From: Bacteroidales bacterium
GTDB taxonomy: Bacteria; Bacteroidota; Bacteroidia; Bacteroidales; UBA932
DNA length: 64,000 bases
Direction: 5' to 3'
Assembly: GCA_021371955.1 (NCBI GenBank)
Contig: JAJFVD010000015.1
Location: 1-64,000, forward strand
Shown: positions 13,378 through 53,202 of the stretch, piece by piece
Layout: each line of letters opens with the position of its first letter
Numbering within the stretch: position 1 is the stretch's first letter
Position numbers and translations under genes: made by a program
Notes under the pieces: model-generated
Database searches by the model: none
What the model saw: the letters and a program-made list of their open reading frames with translations, nothing else
Told to the model about the DNA's origin: nothing

Positions 13378-14805
13378 ATGTATAACGCTCAATCATTCAG
13401 CTCATTAACGCGAAAACCGAGGGATTGGTTCTTCGTTGTGAGTCTATTTTTGTTCCTGGCAACCGGGTGCGGAAGTGCACTCAATATAGAGGCGCCAAGG
13501 GAATCATATATTCCTTCTTCGCTCGCTCCGTCAATGTCTGAGCTTCCGCTGGATGCGGAAATTGATGTAAGAGCAATGGAGAATCTGATTAACACTAAAT
13601 TCACCGGATTGCTTTACGAGGGGCAGAATATCTCTGGCAAAAACATATCTGTTAAAGTTTGGAAAGCTGATAACTTTTCGGTTTTTGTAAACAACAACGA
13701 AATAACATACCGTGTTCCTCTTAAGATTTGGGCCAATCTTGCATGGAAAGTTGAAAAATTCGGTTTTTCCGTTTCGGATGAATATGAAGCTACGGGAACA
13801 ATTGCATTGGTATATAAAACCAAAATTGAGATTGACAACAACTGGAAGGTGGTATCTAAAACTACATCTTCCGGATATACCTGGATTGAGACTCCAAAAT
13901 TCAATGTTGCAGGGTTTACTATTCCTGTTAAACCTATTGCCGATTTTGCCCTTTCCCGCACAGAAAAAATGATTACCGAACAAATTGACAAATCTCTTTC
14001 CGAATCGGTTGACCTTAAGGCAGAATTATCCAAAACATGGACAGACATTCAGAAACCGTTTATTATAAATCCCGATTATAATCTATGGCTGAGGGTCACT
14101 CCAAAAGAGGTTTTACTCTCTCCTTTTACAACAAAAGGGGCAAAACTTCACATCCCCGTTGCATTTAATGCACAAATTGAAACATTTATGGGTGCAGAAC
14201 CGCCTCGGAATTTTCCAACCCCTCTGCCTGCTCTTAAAATAATAGAGCGACAGCCTAAAGAGTTTAGTTTAAATGTAGCTGCCGATATAACATACGACCA
14301 GATTTCAAAAGTAGCAAAGGAACAATTGTCCGGATTTACATTTAACGAAGGCGGTAAATCGGTAACAATTAAAGACATTCAGGTATACAGCAGCAATGGC
14401 AAGGCAGTTTTTATACTTGATGTATTAGGGTCGCTTAAGGGGAAAATTTATTTTTCAGGGAATATGAGATATAATCCGGACAGTACTTCAATAGAGATTA
14501 CCGAACCCGAATTTGATATCAAGACCCGCAACGCTCTGGTAAAATCGGCCAACTGGCTTCTTCACGGAGTGATTCTTAAAAAAATCGCACCATACCTATC
14601 CTATAAAGTTGCCAAAGACCTTGAAAACGCTAGGCTCGAAGCAAACAAGATGATGACAAAATACTCTCTTCTTGAAGGAATCGACCTAGAAGGTTCGCTC
14701 TCTGCCATTACCGTTACAAACCTGAACATGGTTCCGGGAGCCGTACGGCTTCAGGTAAACCTGAAGGGCAATGTCGGAATCAAAGTGAATACTATTAAGA
14801 TGTAG
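13378..14805 (+). CDS. DUF4403 family lipoprotein
   Basis: A 475-residue predicted lipoprotein. A hydrophobic stretch ends in the lipobox LATGC with Cys31 as the acylated residue. The mature part is rich in beta strands, with two similar halves (about 50-250 and 260-470). Both contain hydrophobic-polar alternation like lipid-binding BPI/SMP-type folds, as known for DUF4403. Function is unknown; an envelope lipid-binding role is only a structural guess. The N region before the signal helix (residues 1-17, with KPRD) is encoded by the inverted copy of the upstream tandem repeat. A near-consensus -7 box (AAATTTTG) ends 5 bp before the ATG. Confidence 0.85.
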   Translation: MYNAQSFSSLTRKPRDWFFVVSLFLFLATGCGSALNIEAPRESYIPSSLAPSMSELPLDAEIDVRAMENLINTKFTGLLYEGQNISGKNISVKVWKADNFSVFVNNNEITYRVPLKIWANLAWKVEKFGFSVSDEYEATGTIALVYKTKIEIDNNWKVVSKTTSSGYTWIETPKFNVAGFTIPVKPIADFALSRTEKMITEQIDKSLSESVDLKAELSKTWTDIQKPFIINPDYNLWLRVTPKEVLLSPFTTKGAKLHIPVAFNAQIETFMGAEPPRNFPTPLPALKIIERQPKEFSLNVAADITYDQISKVAKEQLSGFTFNEGGKSVTIKDIQVYSSNGKAVFILDVLGSLKGKIYFSGNMRYNPDSTSIEITEPEFDIKTRNALVKSANWLLHGVILKKIAPYLSYKVAKDLENARLEANKMMTKYSLLEGIDLEGSLSAITVTNLNMVPGAVRLQVNLKGNVGIKVNTIKM

Positions 14806-14806
14806 T

Positions 14807-14857
14807 TTCGGGCTTGTGCGTCCTCGCTCCATTTCATTCCGTTCCGGCCGAATCGCC
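14807..14857 (+). repeat. Type A core repeat, copy A1
   Basis: A 51-bp sequence identical to copy A2 exactly 102 bp downstream, starting TTCGGGCTTGTGCG and ending GGCCGAATCGCC. It begins directly after the DUF4403 stop codon and lacks the flanking inverted arms seen at A2. Confidence 0.9.
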
Positions 14858-15026
14858 GGCGTCGGGTTGCGTTTTATCTCTGACATCTATACACTGCCAA
14901 CTAATCTCTTCGGGCTTGTGCGTCCTCGCTCCATTTCATTCCGTTCCGGCCGAATCGCCCTCATCAATTAGTTGGCAATGTAGAAAATTGTTCAGAAATG
15001 TTATAACCCACCGCCGGAGACGACTA
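14858..15026 (+). repeat. Type A element, complete copy A2
   Basis: The 51-bp core (14909-14959) is bounded by inverted arms TGCCAACTAAT (14895-14905) and ATTAGTTGGCA (14967-14977). A left flank beginning GTCGGGTTGCG and a right flank ending CCGCCGGAGACGAC complete the unit. Copy A3 near 50.1 kb has the same plan in reverse orientation but different arm sequences that again pair. The element can fold into a long stem with the core as terminal domain. Confidence 0.8.
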
Positions 15027-15082
15027 AAATCTGCAAAAACAGCTGAACCAAGACGCCATAATAGGTAGATAATCAATTAGTT

Positions 15083-15121
15083 GCTAAAAACAAACAGATA
15101 TTATGTCTGTTTGTTTTTAGC
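15083..15121 (+). repeat. 7-nt-loop hairpin H1
   Basis: A perfect 16-bp stem with left arm GCTAAAAACAAACAGA, loop TATTATG and a fully complementary right arm. No T-tract follows. It belongs to the five-member H family. Confidence 0.9.
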
Positions 15122-15177
15122 ATGTTGCATATAATAAGGCGATTAGCCCTGATCGTGGCGGTTGGATGGAGCCGGTA

Positions 15178-15270
15178 AGGTGCTCCTGCGTCGCAGGTCT
15201 ACGCCTTCGGCGGGATGGTTTGCCGCCGCATGGCTTAAAAACCGCGGCAAAGCCGCACCATATCTTTTAT
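15178..15270 (+). repeat. REP-like module B1-C1
   Basis: The first 38 bp (15178-15215) are identical to 49236-49273. On the minus strand they read GTAG followed by the palindrome CCTGC-GAC-GCAGG, preceded by CGCC-GAA-GGCG, as in repetitive extragenic palindromes. The adjoining C part (15225-15270) carries GCGGC-AAA-GCCGC and matches 49940-49985. From 15271 to 15336 nothing else was recognised. Confidence 0.8.
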
Positions 15271-47313: not shown

Positions 47314-48966
47314 ATGAAAAAGAACTTTTTTAAACTTTTTTCTCTTGCTGTATTGGGTTTTGCAATGGTTTCCTGCAGTAACCCGTCTAAAATGGCAAAA
47401 GAAGCTATGCTCATCGGCGTAGATGGCAACCCAAAAGTACTGGAGGTTGTAGCTGACGAAATTACAGCATCTTACTCAATTACTTTCCCCGAGGGTTATT
47501 TTCATCCAAAGGCAATCCTGGAAGTTGTTCCCGTACTGGTATATGAAGGTGGAGAACAAGCTGCCCCTACATTTAAACTTCAGGGAGAAAAGGTTACTGA
47601 CAACTTTACCGTTATCCCTGCAATGGGCGGCAAAGCCAGCAACACAATTAAATTTGCCTATGTTCCCGGAATGGAAAAATCGCGTCTTGAGCTTAGAATT
47701 TCTGTATGGAATAAGCTTAAAAAGATTGACTTCCCTGCACCATTTAAGGTAGCCGACGGAGCTAACATTACATACAAGCTCGTACATCAGACAGGCCTTA
47801 CCGCTCTTGCAACCGATAATTACAAGAAGGTTCTTACAGAAAAGAAAGAGACACAAATTCTTTATAAGATAAACAGCTCGGATGTTCGTACAAAAGAGCT
47901 CAGCAAACAAGAGATTAAAGATTTCGAAAAATTCCTTGCCGACATCAAAAAAGACGAGAAGAGAGAAATCACAAATACTCAAATTGTAGCTTATGCATCT
48001 CCGGATGGTCCCGAAACTCTCAACAACAAGCTTTCGGATAAAAGAAGTGAAAGTGCTAAAAAAGCATTTGACAAAATGACTAAAAACAATCCTGTTGACG
48101 GAACCGTAGATGTTAAAACAGTAGCCGAAGACTGGGAAGGTTTCCAGGAGCTGGTTGCCGGATCTTCAATTCAGGACAAGGAGCTTATTCTCCGTGTACT
48201 TTCTATGTATAGTGACCCTATCGTTCGTGAAAGGGAAATCAAAAATATGTCTAAGGTATTTAAAACCCTTTCGGACAAAATCCTTCCTGAACTTCGCAGA
48301 GCCAGGTTCATTGCCAATATCGATTACACAAACTTCAACGATCAGGAACTTGTTGAGCTTACAAAATCAAATATCGAGATAATGGATATTGAGTCTCTTC
48401 TTTATGCCGCAACTCTTGTAAACGATTTCGATTCAAAAGTTAAGATTTACACAAAAGCAGGCGAGAAATTCAATTGCGACCGTGCCTACAATAATCTTAC
48501 TGCAACATATCTTGAAAACGGCAAGCTTGCCGAAGCAAAGGCTTCTATTGCAAAGGTTACCAACAAAACAAGCAAATTCTATTATAACAATGCCGGTGTA
48601 ATTGCTCTTCGCGAGAAGAACTACAAACTGGCAGGCGATATGTTTGCAAAATCGGATCTGCAAGTTGCCAGGCAAAACTCTGCTATTCTTGACATCCTTA
48701 ACGGACGTTATAATGACGCAGTTGCAAAACTTGCCGGAACAGGCGACTCAAACGAAGGTCTTGCATACATCCTTACAAACAAGTTAGACAAAGCGCTTCC
48801 GCTTATAACTCACGACTGCCCTCACGGAGCATATATGAGAGCAATCATTGCCGCCCGCCAGGGTAACATGAGCGAAGTTGCAAAACAACTTAAGAGAGTT
48901 TACGATAGCGAAGCTCTTAAAACCCGTTCTGAGAAGGATATCGAATTTGCAAAATTCAGAGAATAA
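47314..48966 (+). CDS. Lipoprotein with OmpA-like and tetratricopeptide regions
   Basis: A 550-residue lipoprotein (acylated Cys21 in FAMVSC). The N-terminal part (about 30-170) is beta-rich. The middle has an OmpA-like pattern (IVAYASPDGPETLNNKLSDKRSESAKKAF) that could bind peptidoglycan, and about 370-550 is helical with TPR-like repeats (RAYNNLTATYLENGKLAEAKASI). Proteins of this layout are frequent in Bacteroidetes. A cell-envelope scaffold role is likely; nothing more precise is supported. It ends with a strong terminator. Confidence 0.85.
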   Translation: MKKNFFKLFSLAVLGFAMVSCSNPSKMAKEAMLIGVDGNPKVLEVVADEITASYSITFPEGYFHPKAILEVVPVLVYEGGEQAAPTFKLQGEKVTDNFTVIPAMGGKASNTIKFAYVPGMEKSRLELRISVWNKLKKIDFPAPFKVADGANITYKLVHQTGLTALATDNYKKVLTEKKETQILYKINSSDVRTKELSKQEIKDFEKFLADIKKDEKREITNTQIVAYASPDGPETLNNKLSDKRSESAKKAFDKMTKNNPVDGTVDVKTVAEDWEGFQELVAGSSIQDKELILRVLSMYSDPIVREREIKNMSKVFKTLSDKILPELRRARFIANIDYTNFNDQELVELTKSNIEIMDIESLLYAATLVNDFDSKVKIYTKAGEKFNCDRAYNNLTATYLENGKLAEAKASIAKVTNKTSKFYYNNAGVIALREKNYKLAGDMFAKSDLQVARQNSAILDILNGRYNDAVAKLAGTGDSNEGLAYILTNKLDKALPLITHDCPHGAYMRAIIAARQGNMSEVAKQLKRVYDSEALKTRSEKDIEFAKFRE

Positions 48967-48985: not shown

Positions 48986-49024
48986 AAGAGGCCGGCTAAA
49001 ATGATTTTAGCCGGCCTCTTTTTT
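48986..49024 (+). terminator. Terminator of the 47314 gene
   Basis: A 17-bp inverted repeat (AAGAGGCCGGCTAAAAT and its complement, with nearly no unpaired loop) is followed by TTTTTT-type tail, 19 bp after the stop codon. Confidence 0.88.
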
Positions 49025-49077
49025 CGTCCCGTTGGAGAGCTTGTTTCCCTGGAGGTCTAACACATATGATATCAAGC

Positions 49078-49124
49078 AGTTACTCAGAACAAAGAGACAT
49101 AATGTCTCTTTGTTCTGAGTAACT
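49078..49124 (+). repeat. 7-nt-loop hairpin H2
   Basis: Perfect 20-bp stem, left arm AGTTACTCAGAACAAAGAGA, loop CATAATG. Second member of the H family, with compensatory differences from H1 at several pairs. Confidence 0.9.
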
Positions 49125-49235
49125 ATTAGATTATTTGTGACTTAAGTTAGTAAATTCCGCCGCTCCGTCCTGAAACAGGATGACTAAAATCGTAGCCCGC
49201 ATTGGCAAATTATCTCTTCCCAGTGGAGACAAGTT

Positions 49236-49273
49236 AGGTGCTCCTGCGTCGCAGGTCTACGCCTTCGGCGGGA
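49236..49273 (+). repeat. REP-like module B2
   Basis: 38 bp identical to 15178-15215, with the same two short palindromes and GTAG on the minus strand. A degenerate C-like part (TTCCGCATG and GGCGGATC) follows to about 49320. From there to 49461 the DNA is AT-rich and no site was recognised. Confidence 0.85.
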
Positions 49274-49461
49274 ATTCCTGCTAGTTCCGCATGTTGTATG
49301 TCCTAAGGCGGATCAAAACATTCTCTTATAATCTAGATTGATTGCCCGTAAATAGATTGTATTCTTTCTGCGTTTTGTATGCAAATTACTGAATTTAAGT
49401 TAATGGTTTTGAAATCAGAATTATATGTGATAACTTTACTTACTCCAAAAAATAAAATGCT

Positions 49462-49824
49462 ATGATTGCTTTTCTTATAATTCTTATATACTTTGCCATT
49501 GAATATTTGGCAATTCGTAATATAAAAATGGAGAATAACTCCGATTTCCCAAAACATATTGCTACGTCTTTATTTTTTATAACATGGCCATGGTGGCTCT
49601 TTTTTGTAAGTGCTACTTATAGCGGTAACAGAAGGAGAATCTTTTATTCGTCTCTTATTGGTATAATCCACAGTTTATCGCAAACAATAGTACTTATCCT
49701 TTGCTGGAATTCGGAAGTTTTTCCGCTTGGAGAAGTGCTTGCAATCCCTGGGGCGATAGCACTTCTACTCTCTGTCTTATATTTCTTCTGGAATAAGAGA
49801 GAGATTCGGAGGTCAAATATTTAA
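49462..49824 (+). CDS. Small hydrophobic membrane protein, unknown
   Basis: A 120-residue protein with four predicted membrane spans (about 2-18, 32-48, 60-80, 88-110), a basic loop (SGNRRRIFY) and a basic end (NKREIRRSNI). It has no recognised family or motif. It is alone between two repeat clusters (H2-B2 on the left, H3-C2-H4-A3 on the right) and is AT-rich. Codon structure and the regular pattern of spans argue that it is real. It could be a passenger of a mobile or repeat-driven segment. Confidence 0.6.
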   Translation: MIAFLIILIYFAIEYLAIRNIKMENNSDFPKHIATSLFFITWPWWLFFVSATYSGNRRRIFYSSLIGIIHSLSQTIVLILCWNSEVFPLGEVLAIPGAIALLLSVLYFFWNKREIRRSNI

Positions 49825-49835
49825 ATGTTCTATCC

Positions 49836-49896
49836 ATAAACATATTGCTAAGAACAAAAAGAAATACAATCTTTTTGTTCTTAGCAATATGTTTAT
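49836..49896 (+). repeat. 7-nt-loop hairpin H3
   Basis: The longest stem of the family, 27 bp without mismatch, inner 16 bp GCTAAGAACAAAAAGA, loop AATACAA. It starts 12 bp after the stop of the small membrane protein gene. No T-tract follows. Confidence 0.9.
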
Positions 49897-49939
49897 TACG
49901 AATTTGTTAATCGAATAATTTTAGCCGAAAGGTTTGCTG

Positions 49940-49985
49940 GCCGCATGGTTCATAAATCGCGGCGCAGCCGCACCATATCTTTTTA
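49940..49985 (+). repeat. REP-like module C2
   Basis: Matches 15225-15270 at most positions. The short stem GCGGC/GCCGC is kept while its loop changes from AAA to GCA. The preceding GGTTTGC is also shared, but the B part is missing. Confidence 0.75.
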
Positions 49986-50008
49986 ATTATAACATTGTGA
50001 GGTATCTG

Positions 50009-50045
50009 CTAAGAACGCGCAGACATTATGTCTGCGCGTTCTTAG
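50009..50045 (+). repeat. 7-nt-loop hairpin H4
   Basis: Stem of 15 bp plus an outer G-U, inner arm GCTAAGAACGCGCAGA, loop CATTATG. Three successive A-T pairs of the other copies are replaced by paired GCG/CGC. Confidence 0.9.
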
Positions 50046-50065
50046 TACAAAATTGATTTAATGGC

Positions 50066-50238
50066 GATTACGGGCTGTCGGTTGCGAGTTGAACTTTTTT
50101 ATGCATCGTCTTTCGTTGTCTGCTAATCGATGAGGGCGATTCGGCCGGAACGAAGCGCAGCTGAGCGAGGACGCACAAGCCCTCAGTGATTAGCAGACAA
50201 TGTATAAACGGTATAGATAAAACGCAACTCGCCGCCGG
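50066..50238 (-). repeat. Type A element, inverted copy A3
   Basis: Reverse-orientation relative of 14858-15026. Core ends GGCGATTCGGCCGGAACG and AGGACGCACAAGCCC are kept, with a variable 15-nt middle. Inner arms TTGTCTGCTAATC (50116-50128) and GATTAGCAGACAA (50188-50200) pair perfectly, as do outer arms GCGAGTTG and CAACTCGC, although their sequences differ from those at A2. Confidence 0.8.
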
Positions 50239-50243
50239 AAAGC

Positions 50244-53060
50244 TTATTTCACCAGAATCGGTTTCCCAAACCCAATCTTTTCCAGTTGCTTCATTTGTGT
50301 TGCAGCGTCTCCAACCACTACATAATACATTTTGTCGGGAACGATGTATTTGTTTGTGATTGCCTTGTGCTCTTCAATGGTAATGTTCTTTATAATTTCT
50401 CCCTCTTTCTTTATATAATCTTCCGGAAAGCCGTATTTGCTCATCGTAAACAACATACCGGCCAGTGAGCCGTTTGTCTCGAAGCGCAAAGCATTGGAAC
50501 GGAGCATACAGTTTTTAATAAACTGAAGGTCTTCCTGAGATACGCCGTTCCGGTATTTTTCCATCTCCTCCTTAAAAATCTTTAGGGTTTCAAAGGTAGC
50601 ATCGGAACGAACGCTTGTTGCAGCAATAAACGGTGCGATAATTTTCTGTTCCATAAAGTAGCTTGAAGCACCGTAAGTAAATCCTTTTTCTTCACGGAGA
50701 ATCTGATTAAAGATACTTGTAAACGCACCGCCAAGCCTGTAGTTTACAAAATCTGCCTTAACATAATCGGGATTATCTCTTGAAAGAGCAAGGTTGCCTA
50801 TGTATATAACGGATTGGCGCGAACCCGGGATATCTACAAAATAAATTGCCGACTTCTCCGGACCTGCAGGCACAGGGTAGCTGTTGAAAGCCACCTCTTT
50901 TGCCTTCCATTCTTTTTCAAGAGGCTCAAGAGCTTTAAGAACCTGCTCTTTTGACACATTGCCGACAACCTGAATTTTTGTAACAGATGGCGAGAAGTTC
51001 TTTTCATAAAATGCCTTAAGGTCGTCCAGTTTAATCTTATCCAGCGATTCTTTGGTTCCTAAAGTATTAAATCCAAAAATATTATCTGTTCCGTACAGTA
51101 ATTTAAAGAATAAATCATTGGCAACGCTCCTTGGCTGCGCCTGTGACTGAATTATCCTGTTTTTTGTCCGGGATTGAGCCATTGCGAACTCAGTTGAGTC
51201 CCATCTTGGTTCCAGAAGCATCTCTTTCATGAGAGAGAGAGTTTTTTCAAAATTTCTGGACAGAGTACCTGCATACATCGATATCTCTTCCCTGTCTGCA
51301 TACATTCTGATATTTGAACCAAGAAGCTCGATTTGCTCTTCCAGTTCCTCCGGAGTCCTGTTTTTTGTTCCCTGAGGAAGTACACTTGCAACCATTCCGG
51401 TAACTCCCGGCAACAGAATATTATCCTGCGAAATCCCGCCATTGATTACAAAGCTGATATCCACAAGAGGCAGTTCCTTATTCTGAATTCCATAAACTTC
51501 TATGCCATTTGCAAGTTTTGCTTTCCAGATTTCAGGAACATTCACATCCGGATCTTTTCCAATAGCCGGCTCAACAGTCCTGTCCATAGAAGATGCGGTC
51601 TTTGTTATTTTCTCATCTCCGGCCTTAGCTATCTCTACCTGACTGGCTTCTGATATATTCTCTTCTTTCACACCTGCTGGAACAGAGTTTTCTGCAATCA
51701 TCTCAGGCTTGCCCTTGGGAACAAAGCTTGTGACAACATGAGGTTTTCCTTTAATGTACTTTTCATATACCGCTTTAACATCGTTAAGTGTTACCGCTTT
51801 AATGTTTTCAATGTCCTTTTCAATATATCCCGGGTCGTTGAGGAAAGTATTATAGAATGCCAGCTGAAGCGACTTGCTCAAAACACTTGTAATTCCCTCG
51901 TAGAAATTCTTTTCGCTGGAAGCCTTAACTCTCTCTATGTCATTTTCTGTGATTCCCTCTTTCTCGAAACGCAGGAAAGCTTCGGAAACGGCATCTTCAA
52001 TTTCTTTGAGAGACTTGCCTTCGTTGGCTCTTATTGAAATTGCAAATTCGCCTGTCAGTTCGCCAGGATTGTTATAGGCCGACGTTCTTGATGTAAGTTG
52101 TTTCTCTTTTACCAACACTTTATACAGAGGCGCTTTCTTTCCATCGGCAAGAATTTTTGCAAGGAAATCAAGTGCGTATGCATCCTTGGTATAAGCTGCA
52201 GTAGCGGGCCATACCATATTTATTTCCGGCACATTGGCGAAATTGTCTTCGTGAAACAATTTTACTGTTTTGTCCAGAGAAGCCGGCATTGCAGTACGTT
52301 TTGCCACTTCCCCGTGAGACTTAATCTCACCGAAATATTTATTAATCAAAACTTTTACAGAATCGGGATTAAAATCGCCTGCAAGAACAAGAGTTGCATT
52401 ATTTGGCCCATAGAAATTATCATAATAACTCTTTACGTCGTTTAAGGTGGCACCTTTAAGGTCTTCCATTTCTCCTATTACCTCCCAGCTGTACGGGTGA
52501 CCTGCAGGATAAAGATTCTTGTTTATTACATAGTCTGTAAAGCCATACGGAGAGTTGTCTTCTCCCTGTCTTTTTTCATTCTGAACTACATTCTGCTGAA
52601 TTGCAAGCGAGCGCTGGGTAACAGAGTTTATGAAAAATCCCATACGATCGGATTCGAGCCATAATACTTTTTCAAGAGCATTCTTTGGGAAAGATTCAAA
52701 GTAAGTTGTAACATCCCTTGATGTAAATCCGTTATTTGACCCTCCCACGCCCTCAATAATCTTGTCAAAAGTTCCTGTTGGTACATTTTCCGAACCTCCG
52801 AAAAGCAAATGTTCGAAAAGATGGGCAAAACCGGTTTTCCCGGGAACCTCTCTGCTGGAACCAACATGATACATGATGGTGTATGATATCACCGGATCGG
52901 AATGGTCGGTGTGCAGTATCACCTGCAAGCCATTTGGCATAACATACTTCTCGTAATTTACGGTCAGCTTGTTACTGTCAGAAGTATTTTTACAGGCCGT
53001 TACGGCCAGAACTACTGCCACAATGAGCAGTATGTTACTGAAAAAACGAAACTTGTTCAT
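50244..53060 (-). CDS. M16 family zinc metalloprotease lipoprotein
   Basis: A 938-residue two-domain insulinase-type protease. Lipobox at Cys23 (AVTACKN), so it is probably held in the envelope. The zinc motif is His80-Glu83-His84 in GFAHLFEHLLFGG, with distal glutamate in NVVQNEKRQG near 157. A Lys/Glu-rich linker around 455-510 joins the catalytic half to an inactive second half. It is a second M16 enzyme beside the 26.6 kb one, with different anchoring. It stands alone, next to the A3 repeat at its 3' end. Confidence 0.93.
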   Translation of the reverse strand: MNKFRFFSNILLIVAVVLAVTACKNTSDSNKLTVNYEKYVMPNGLQVILHTDHSDPVISYTIMYHVGSSREVPGKTGFAHLFEHLLFGGSENVPTGTFDKIIEGVGGSNNGFTSRDVTTYFESFPKNALEKVLWLESDRMGFFINSVTQRSLAIQQNVVQNEKRQGEDNSPYGFTDYVINKNLYPAGHPYSWEVIGEMEDLKGATLNDVKSYYDNFYGPNNATLVLAGDFNPDSVKVLINKYFGEIKSHGEVAKRTAMPASLDKTVKLFHEDNFANVPEINMVWPATAAYTKDAYALDFLAKILADGKKAPLYKVLVKEKQLTSRTSAYNNPGELTGEFAISIRANEGKSLKEIEDAVSEAFLRFEKEGITENDIERVKASSEKNFYEGITSVLSKSLQLAFYNTFLNDPGYIEKDIENIKAVTLNDVKAVYEKYIKGKPHVVTSFVPKGKPEMIAENSVPAGVKEENISEASQVEIAKAGDEKITKTASSMDRTVEPAIGKDPDVNVPEIWKAKLANGIEVYGIQNKELPLVDISFVINGGISQDNILLPGVTGMVASVLPQGTKNRTPEELEEQIELLGSNIRMYADREEISMYAGTLSRNFEKTLSLMKEMLLEPRWDSTEFAMAQSRTKNRIIQSQAQPRSVANDLFFKLLYGTDNIFGFNTLGTKESLDKIKLDDLKAFYEKNFSPSVTKIQVVGNVSKEQVLKALEPLEKEWKAKEVAFNSYPVPAGPEKSAIYFVDIPGSRQSVIYIGNLALSRDNPDYVKADFVNYRLGGAFTSIFNQILREEKGFTYGASSYFMEQKIIAPFIAATSVRSDATFETLKIFKEEMEKYRNGVSQEDLQFIKNCMLRSNALRFETNGSLAGMLFTMSKYGFPEDYIKKEGEIIKNITIEEHKAITNKYIVPDKMYYVVVGDAATQMKQLEKIGFGKPILVK

Positions 53061-53163: not shown

Positions 53164-53202
53164 GCTAAAAACAAAGAGATATAATATCTCTTTGTTTTTG
53201 GT
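53164..53202 (+). repeat. 7-nt-loop hairpin H5
   Basis: A 16-bp stem with two G-U pairs, left arm GCTAAAAACAAAGAGA, loop TATAATA. It is followed by TGGCAATGTGTA, which resembles the right flank of A2. It lies between divergently transcribed genes. Confidence 0.85.

Follow-up and report, generated by a model that had tools for sequence, protein, structure and literature searches.

A probable REP/MITE mosaic with a membrane-protein gene as passenger between two convergent genes of a Bacteroidales genome

The 64,000-nt stretch of DNA from an uncultured Bacteroidales bacterium analysed here (the window) contains a block, positions 48986-50243, in which a lone gene for a 120-aa membrane protein lies among dispersed repeats. 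This arrangement raises the question of whether the gene and the repeats form one cassette or whether the gene is a passenger in a repeat island. Our analysis makes it probable that the block is a mosaic of REP and MITE elements in a convergent intergenic region, with the 120-aa gene as a passenger. The block is the whole gap between two convergent genes, namely a 550-aa TPR/OmpA-like gene on the left (stop at 48966), for which only weak Pfam matches were obtained, and, on the right and on the opposite strand, a gene for an M16 peptidase (stop at 50244).

From left to right, the block holds a terminator-like palindrome, an H palindrome, a B arm, the gene, a second H palindrome, a C arm, a third H palindrome, and an A element. 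A preliminary description had named the repeats and the gene; all of these were present, and the H, A, and B families exceeded chance. The palindrome at 48986-49020 (plus strand) is of the intrinsic-terminator type, lies directly 3' of the 550-aa gene, and is separate from the repeats. The first long H palindrome belongs to subfamily Pd (CTCAGAACAAAGAGACATNATGTCTCTTTGTTCTGAG; 49078-49124, arms 23, loop 1) and is followed on the plus strand by a degenerate GTCCTGAAATAGGTTGAC end with 2 mismatches (49167-49184), of a kind that precedes many B copies, and by the B core (49233-49275). A possible promoter (TTTTG ... TAACTTTA; 49407-49438, plus strand) was read from the sequence only, by what we take to be the Bacteroides consensus. 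The gene itself, with four predicted helices, occupies 49462-49824 on the plus strand. An H palindrome of subfamily Pf (49836-49896, arms 28, loop 5) begins 12 nt past its stop codon and is terminator-like on both strands. C (49931-49983, plus strand), an H palindrome of subfamily Pe (50007-50047, arms 20, loop 1), and the A element (50094-50243, minus strand) complete the block. The A element has a covarying stem, a conserved core, and, beyond 50116-50238, inverted outer ends that reach almost to the M16 stop codon. The reported AT-richness holds for the gene half (GC 0.346-0.352 at 49250-49999; surroundings mostly 0.38-0.44) but not for the rest of the block. An Rfam scan of the whole window gave zero matches. 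A 74-aa open frame on the minus strand (49333-49557), antisense to the gene start, had no support as a gene.

Comparison of the gene with its homologue in Bacteroidales bacterium CF gave a dN of 0.25, a dS of 1.94, which is near saturation, and a dN/dS of 0.128; these values indicate that the 120-aa gene is real and under purifying selection. The structure model of the protein was weak (mean pLDDT 59.8, 2 sequences). The gene is present in four of the 25 genomes of the genus and absent from 21, and at family scope it occurs in at most 5 of 299 genomes, the fifth being a doubtful match. A pattern-based search of a genome collection of 84,980 species returned three loci, two on MAG contigs that are probably those of G204 and G209 and one in CF. 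A match in G242 (31% identity, E 6e-4, in a 305-aa frame) was weak and was left out of the homologue count. Pfam, NCBIfam, PHROGs, and PADLOC yielded nothing significant for the protein, no relative was found on plasmids or in phages, and viral contigs held none. Within the island, no second sense ORF of at least 60 aa was present as a candidate toxin-antitoxin partner. For the suggestion of a toxin-like peptide there was no evidence; the protein matched neither a known family nor a defence profile.

G204 and G209 match the window over the left half of its island at about 97%; the contigs of both stop inside the gene, and therefore the right half is known only from the window genome (G000). 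The three genomes with the site all carry the gene. The left neighbour is present in 25 of 25 genus genomes, and the gene follows it only in these three; in the other 22, the stretch behind it (up to 1.5 kb, less at contig ends) showed no 120-aa gene and no M16 gene. The relatives thus do not share the gene in one core context free of repeats.

CF (G010, L113:3704-4913) holds the sole diverged homologue, at a different genomic place and without 17 internal residues. It lies 10 nt before a HAD hydrolase gene matching PDC-S34 of PADLOC (E 3e-125), which we call a defence candidate because of the library in which it stands; the neighbourhood lies between AbiE-like and HipA genes, with an HTH gene near. 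A-type hairpins stand before and after the homologue, and 4 kb away a third such hairpin adjoins another, truncated copy of the gene. Three of the 22 A-type matches of the CF genome fall within the 5.4 kb occupied by the homologue and its truncated copy. The expectation that homologues would lie between H-type hairpins failed, since the CF hairpins are A-like, not H-like. The passenger suggestion is supported by the absence of the gene from 21 of 25 genomes and by a homologue elsewhere that is again among A-type hairpins. We propose that the gene is a conserved, sporadic membrane-protein passenger, probably from a defence-type neighbourhood and presumably without a role in the repeats, which would have arrived either through insertion or through recombination of one island copy with another.

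The repeats are far from confined to this block. In the window genome (2.5 Mb, 16 contigs), H, A, B, and C are spread over about 44 regions (44 inspected: 41 fetched and three from the window), and blastn matches numbered 38 with A, 26 with B, and 71 with the right-hand half of the island. In 41 islands the gene setting was judged (L050, L070, and L081 being left out), and 26 lie between convergent, 13 between tandem, and 2 between divergent genes. The baseline of about one convergent pair in four is an unmeasured expectation; the measured background of 3 convergent pairs in 48 is biased low because the neighbour of a convergent pair cannot itself be convergent. All six islands with A on both strands have the order A- ... 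A+, and in the 17 islands that combine A with other elements, every B, C, or H element (44/44) is placed inward of the A closest to it. From this order and the inner-side rule it follows that A borders the islands. Such a strict rule, with A outside and the rest inside, suggests that the mosaic grows by insertion in a bordered space. Thirteen regions hold A alone, and 14 are without A. At the four loci compared, G204 and G209 differed from the window genome in whether whole elements were present or absent, with no clear target-site duplication; at the block itself, neither a clear target-site duplication nor a clean empty site was seen. With as many as 3 mismatches allowed, the GTCCTGAAATAGGTTGAC end occurs at 19 sites; 17 are within or next to known islands, and the remaining two are C5:139616 and C6:492028. 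Elsewhere in the window, a second island (14803-15268) shows, after a stop codon, the A core in a tandem step of 102 nt (two identical 51-nt stretches), then H, B, and C. A lone H palindrome (53165-53201) lies between divergent genes, outside any island.

The A hairpin is 150-190 nt long. Across 27 sequences, of which 26 are copies from the window genome and one is a hairpin from CF, its stem of 22 pairs holds in 83% of cells, and 14 pairs are changed on both sides, as much as was reached in 0 of 500 shuffles. The structure was drawn from the same 27 sequences, and relatedness of the copies can inflate such covariation counts. Gene conversion between arms could likewise keep the stems paired. 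Most extended copies end, as judged by eye, in AGTCTCCGGCGGCGAGTTG / CAACTCGCCGCCGGAGACT-like terminal inverted repeats. With blastn, A was found in the window genome, G204, and G209 only; a model search detected A-type hairpins in 13 of 25 genus genomes; their outer stems are specific to the lineage, and their inner motif is conserved. No A was found on plasmids, and no A core in viral contigs. In the proposed mosaic, A is the hairpin element bordering islands as an inverted pair, of which only the right border is seen here.

B and C are, by predicted pairing, the arms of one hairpin element of about 84 nt, and a two-sided compensating change was found in 0 of 24 pairs over 8 copies. In these 8 copies (five from the window genome, three from close relatives) the arms are 82-104 nt apart; three longer copies span 155-224 nt and the window copy about 740 nt, with the 120-aa gene at its apex. 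This geometry could mean that the gene is true cargo, with the B and C arms as cassette ends and the short hairpins as internally deleted empty forms. The position of the gene is exactly between the two arms, B comes before C in each of the 11 islands in which both share orientation, and the other long forms hold only palindrome-bearing spacers at the apex. However, no second gene copy between B and C was found, no transposase gene was seen between any pair of arms, and beside the CF homologue there are A-like hairpins, with no B or C noticed. We therefore regard cargo status as decidedly unlikely. The cassette idea keeps some probability only in the form of a B-C apex that takes in DNA. It is very unlikely that islands serve in this way as gene-capture sites whose contents are carried between islands by RAYT-type single-strand transposases. 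In the preferred passenger reading, B-C would be a single element of about 84 nt that is split at its apex in the window copy.

The H palindromes, at 37-61 nt, are long and close to perfect. Their core pattern has 18 sites in the window genome as against 0 for a reversed-pattern control; G204 has 2 and G209 has 4, and the other 22 of 25 genus genomes have none. A PF01797 search gave a match in 22 of 25 genus genomes and identified five such RAYT (Y1/HUH) genes in the window genome, encoding 251-293 aa, with the HVH motif kept in all five. At G000:C5:10403-11200, a RAYT gene has one H palindrome about 118 nt upstream and another 35 nt downstream; both belong to the 18 sites and to subfamily Pa. 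The RAYT at C6:219697, 65% identical to it, is flanked on either side by a sister palindrome, TACTAAAAAGG..CCTTTTTAGTA, which shares the ends of the first but differs in the middle. Further copies of such sister palindromes are present in islands. Such sister RAYTs beside sister palindromes mean that RAYT-repeat specificity could be tested by swapping. A third RAYT (C9) lies between two copies of a 115-nt hairpin. Another palindrome occurs twice at the fourth (C6:275150), both times on the same side, and the fifth has no shared flanking palindrome. Among the loci, L049, L227, L226, and L224 of this genome have RAYT genes adjoining their own palindrome families. The two flanks resembled each other (E<1e-7) at 3 of the 5 RAYTs of the window genome and at 7 of 15 RAYT loci in the genus, as against 0 of 20 TPR control genes even at E<1e-3; 18 loci were tried, and L204, L187, and L199 were left out (L204 for a misread frame, L187 and L199 for too short a flank).

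By these likenesses in sequence, H is a REP-like family, as closely related palindromes flank RAYT genes; REPs are a known sort of repeat, which domesticated transposases copy to new places in a genome. A cognate Y1/HUH gene flanked by copies exists for subfamilies Pa and Pb, in the layout called REPtron for which RAYTs are known; the RAYT flanks of the window genome held none for Pd, Pe, and Pf, the three subfamilies of the island. No RAYT was found beside A elements, and the GT[AG]G tetranucleotide of canonical REPs was not noticed at the foot of the H hairpins when flanks were read by eye. H would be copied and spread by RAYT-type Y1/HUH transposases, with C5:10403-11200 as the candidate enzyme for Pa, a palindrome closely related to H. 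One could go further and read H-gene-H as a REP-flanked unit moved in trans by a RAYT, in the manner of IS200/IS605-like single-strand transposition, given that RAYT genes are themselves flanked by H-type palindromes in this genome. RAYT flanks carry one subfamily on both sides, whereas the gene is flanked by two (Pd and Pf), each of which recurs elsewhere without the gene; the cassette bounded by H that had been proposed is, in that form, unsupported on the same grounds. Moreover, Quentin et al. 2018 (PMC6006769) describe that REPtrons do not seem to move as one unit. This makes movement of H-gene-H highly improbable.

The placement of islands mainly between convergent genes, the terminator-like form of Pf and of the palindrome at 48986, and the covarying A stem could also be understood if the hairpins were functional 3' ends, acting as terminators or mRNA stabilisers, with the gene a resident that has its own promoter and Pf as its terminator. 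In tandem-gene islands, however, A is not consistently sense to a gene, and perfect palindromes with changing arms, together with whole-element gain or loss between close relatives, suit mobile repeats better. As the full account of the block this is unlikely; a 3'-end role and the mobile-repeat reading are compatible, and both can be true.

Several known systems resemble this mosaic. Among the RAYTs already described for Bacteroidetes is subclass 2.6 of Quentin et al. 2018 (PMC6006769), whose structures are atypical and lack the GTAG foot. The present genes are alike in being single Y1 HUH genes flanked by genome-recurrent palindromes with no GTAG foot noticed; the likeness is one of description, and the RAYTs of the window genome were compared by pairwise identities only. 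Unlike that subclass as described there, the palindromes here are 37-61 nt long, nearly perfect, and set in mixed islands with A and B-C. The BrickBuilt MITE of Porphyromonas gingivalis is likewise from Bacteroidales, modular, and intergenic, and the excerpt of PMC4596501 used here gives it a leader, a tail, inverted ends, and 19 copies in one strain. By comparison of descriptions, our islands differ from it in having hairpin modules and no 23-nt tandem repeat. The combination of several repeat types in intergenic regions recalls the BIME/REPIN mosaics of E. coli and Pseudomonas; in contrast to them, the sequences are other ones, a hairpin of its own kind (A, 150-190 nt) forms the borders, and a gene is present in one island. 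In contrast to REP/RAYT pairs, the palindromes next to this 120-aa gene were found without a RAYT. A gene in such an island, if shown to move, would be a step towards the carriage of cargo by REP systems.
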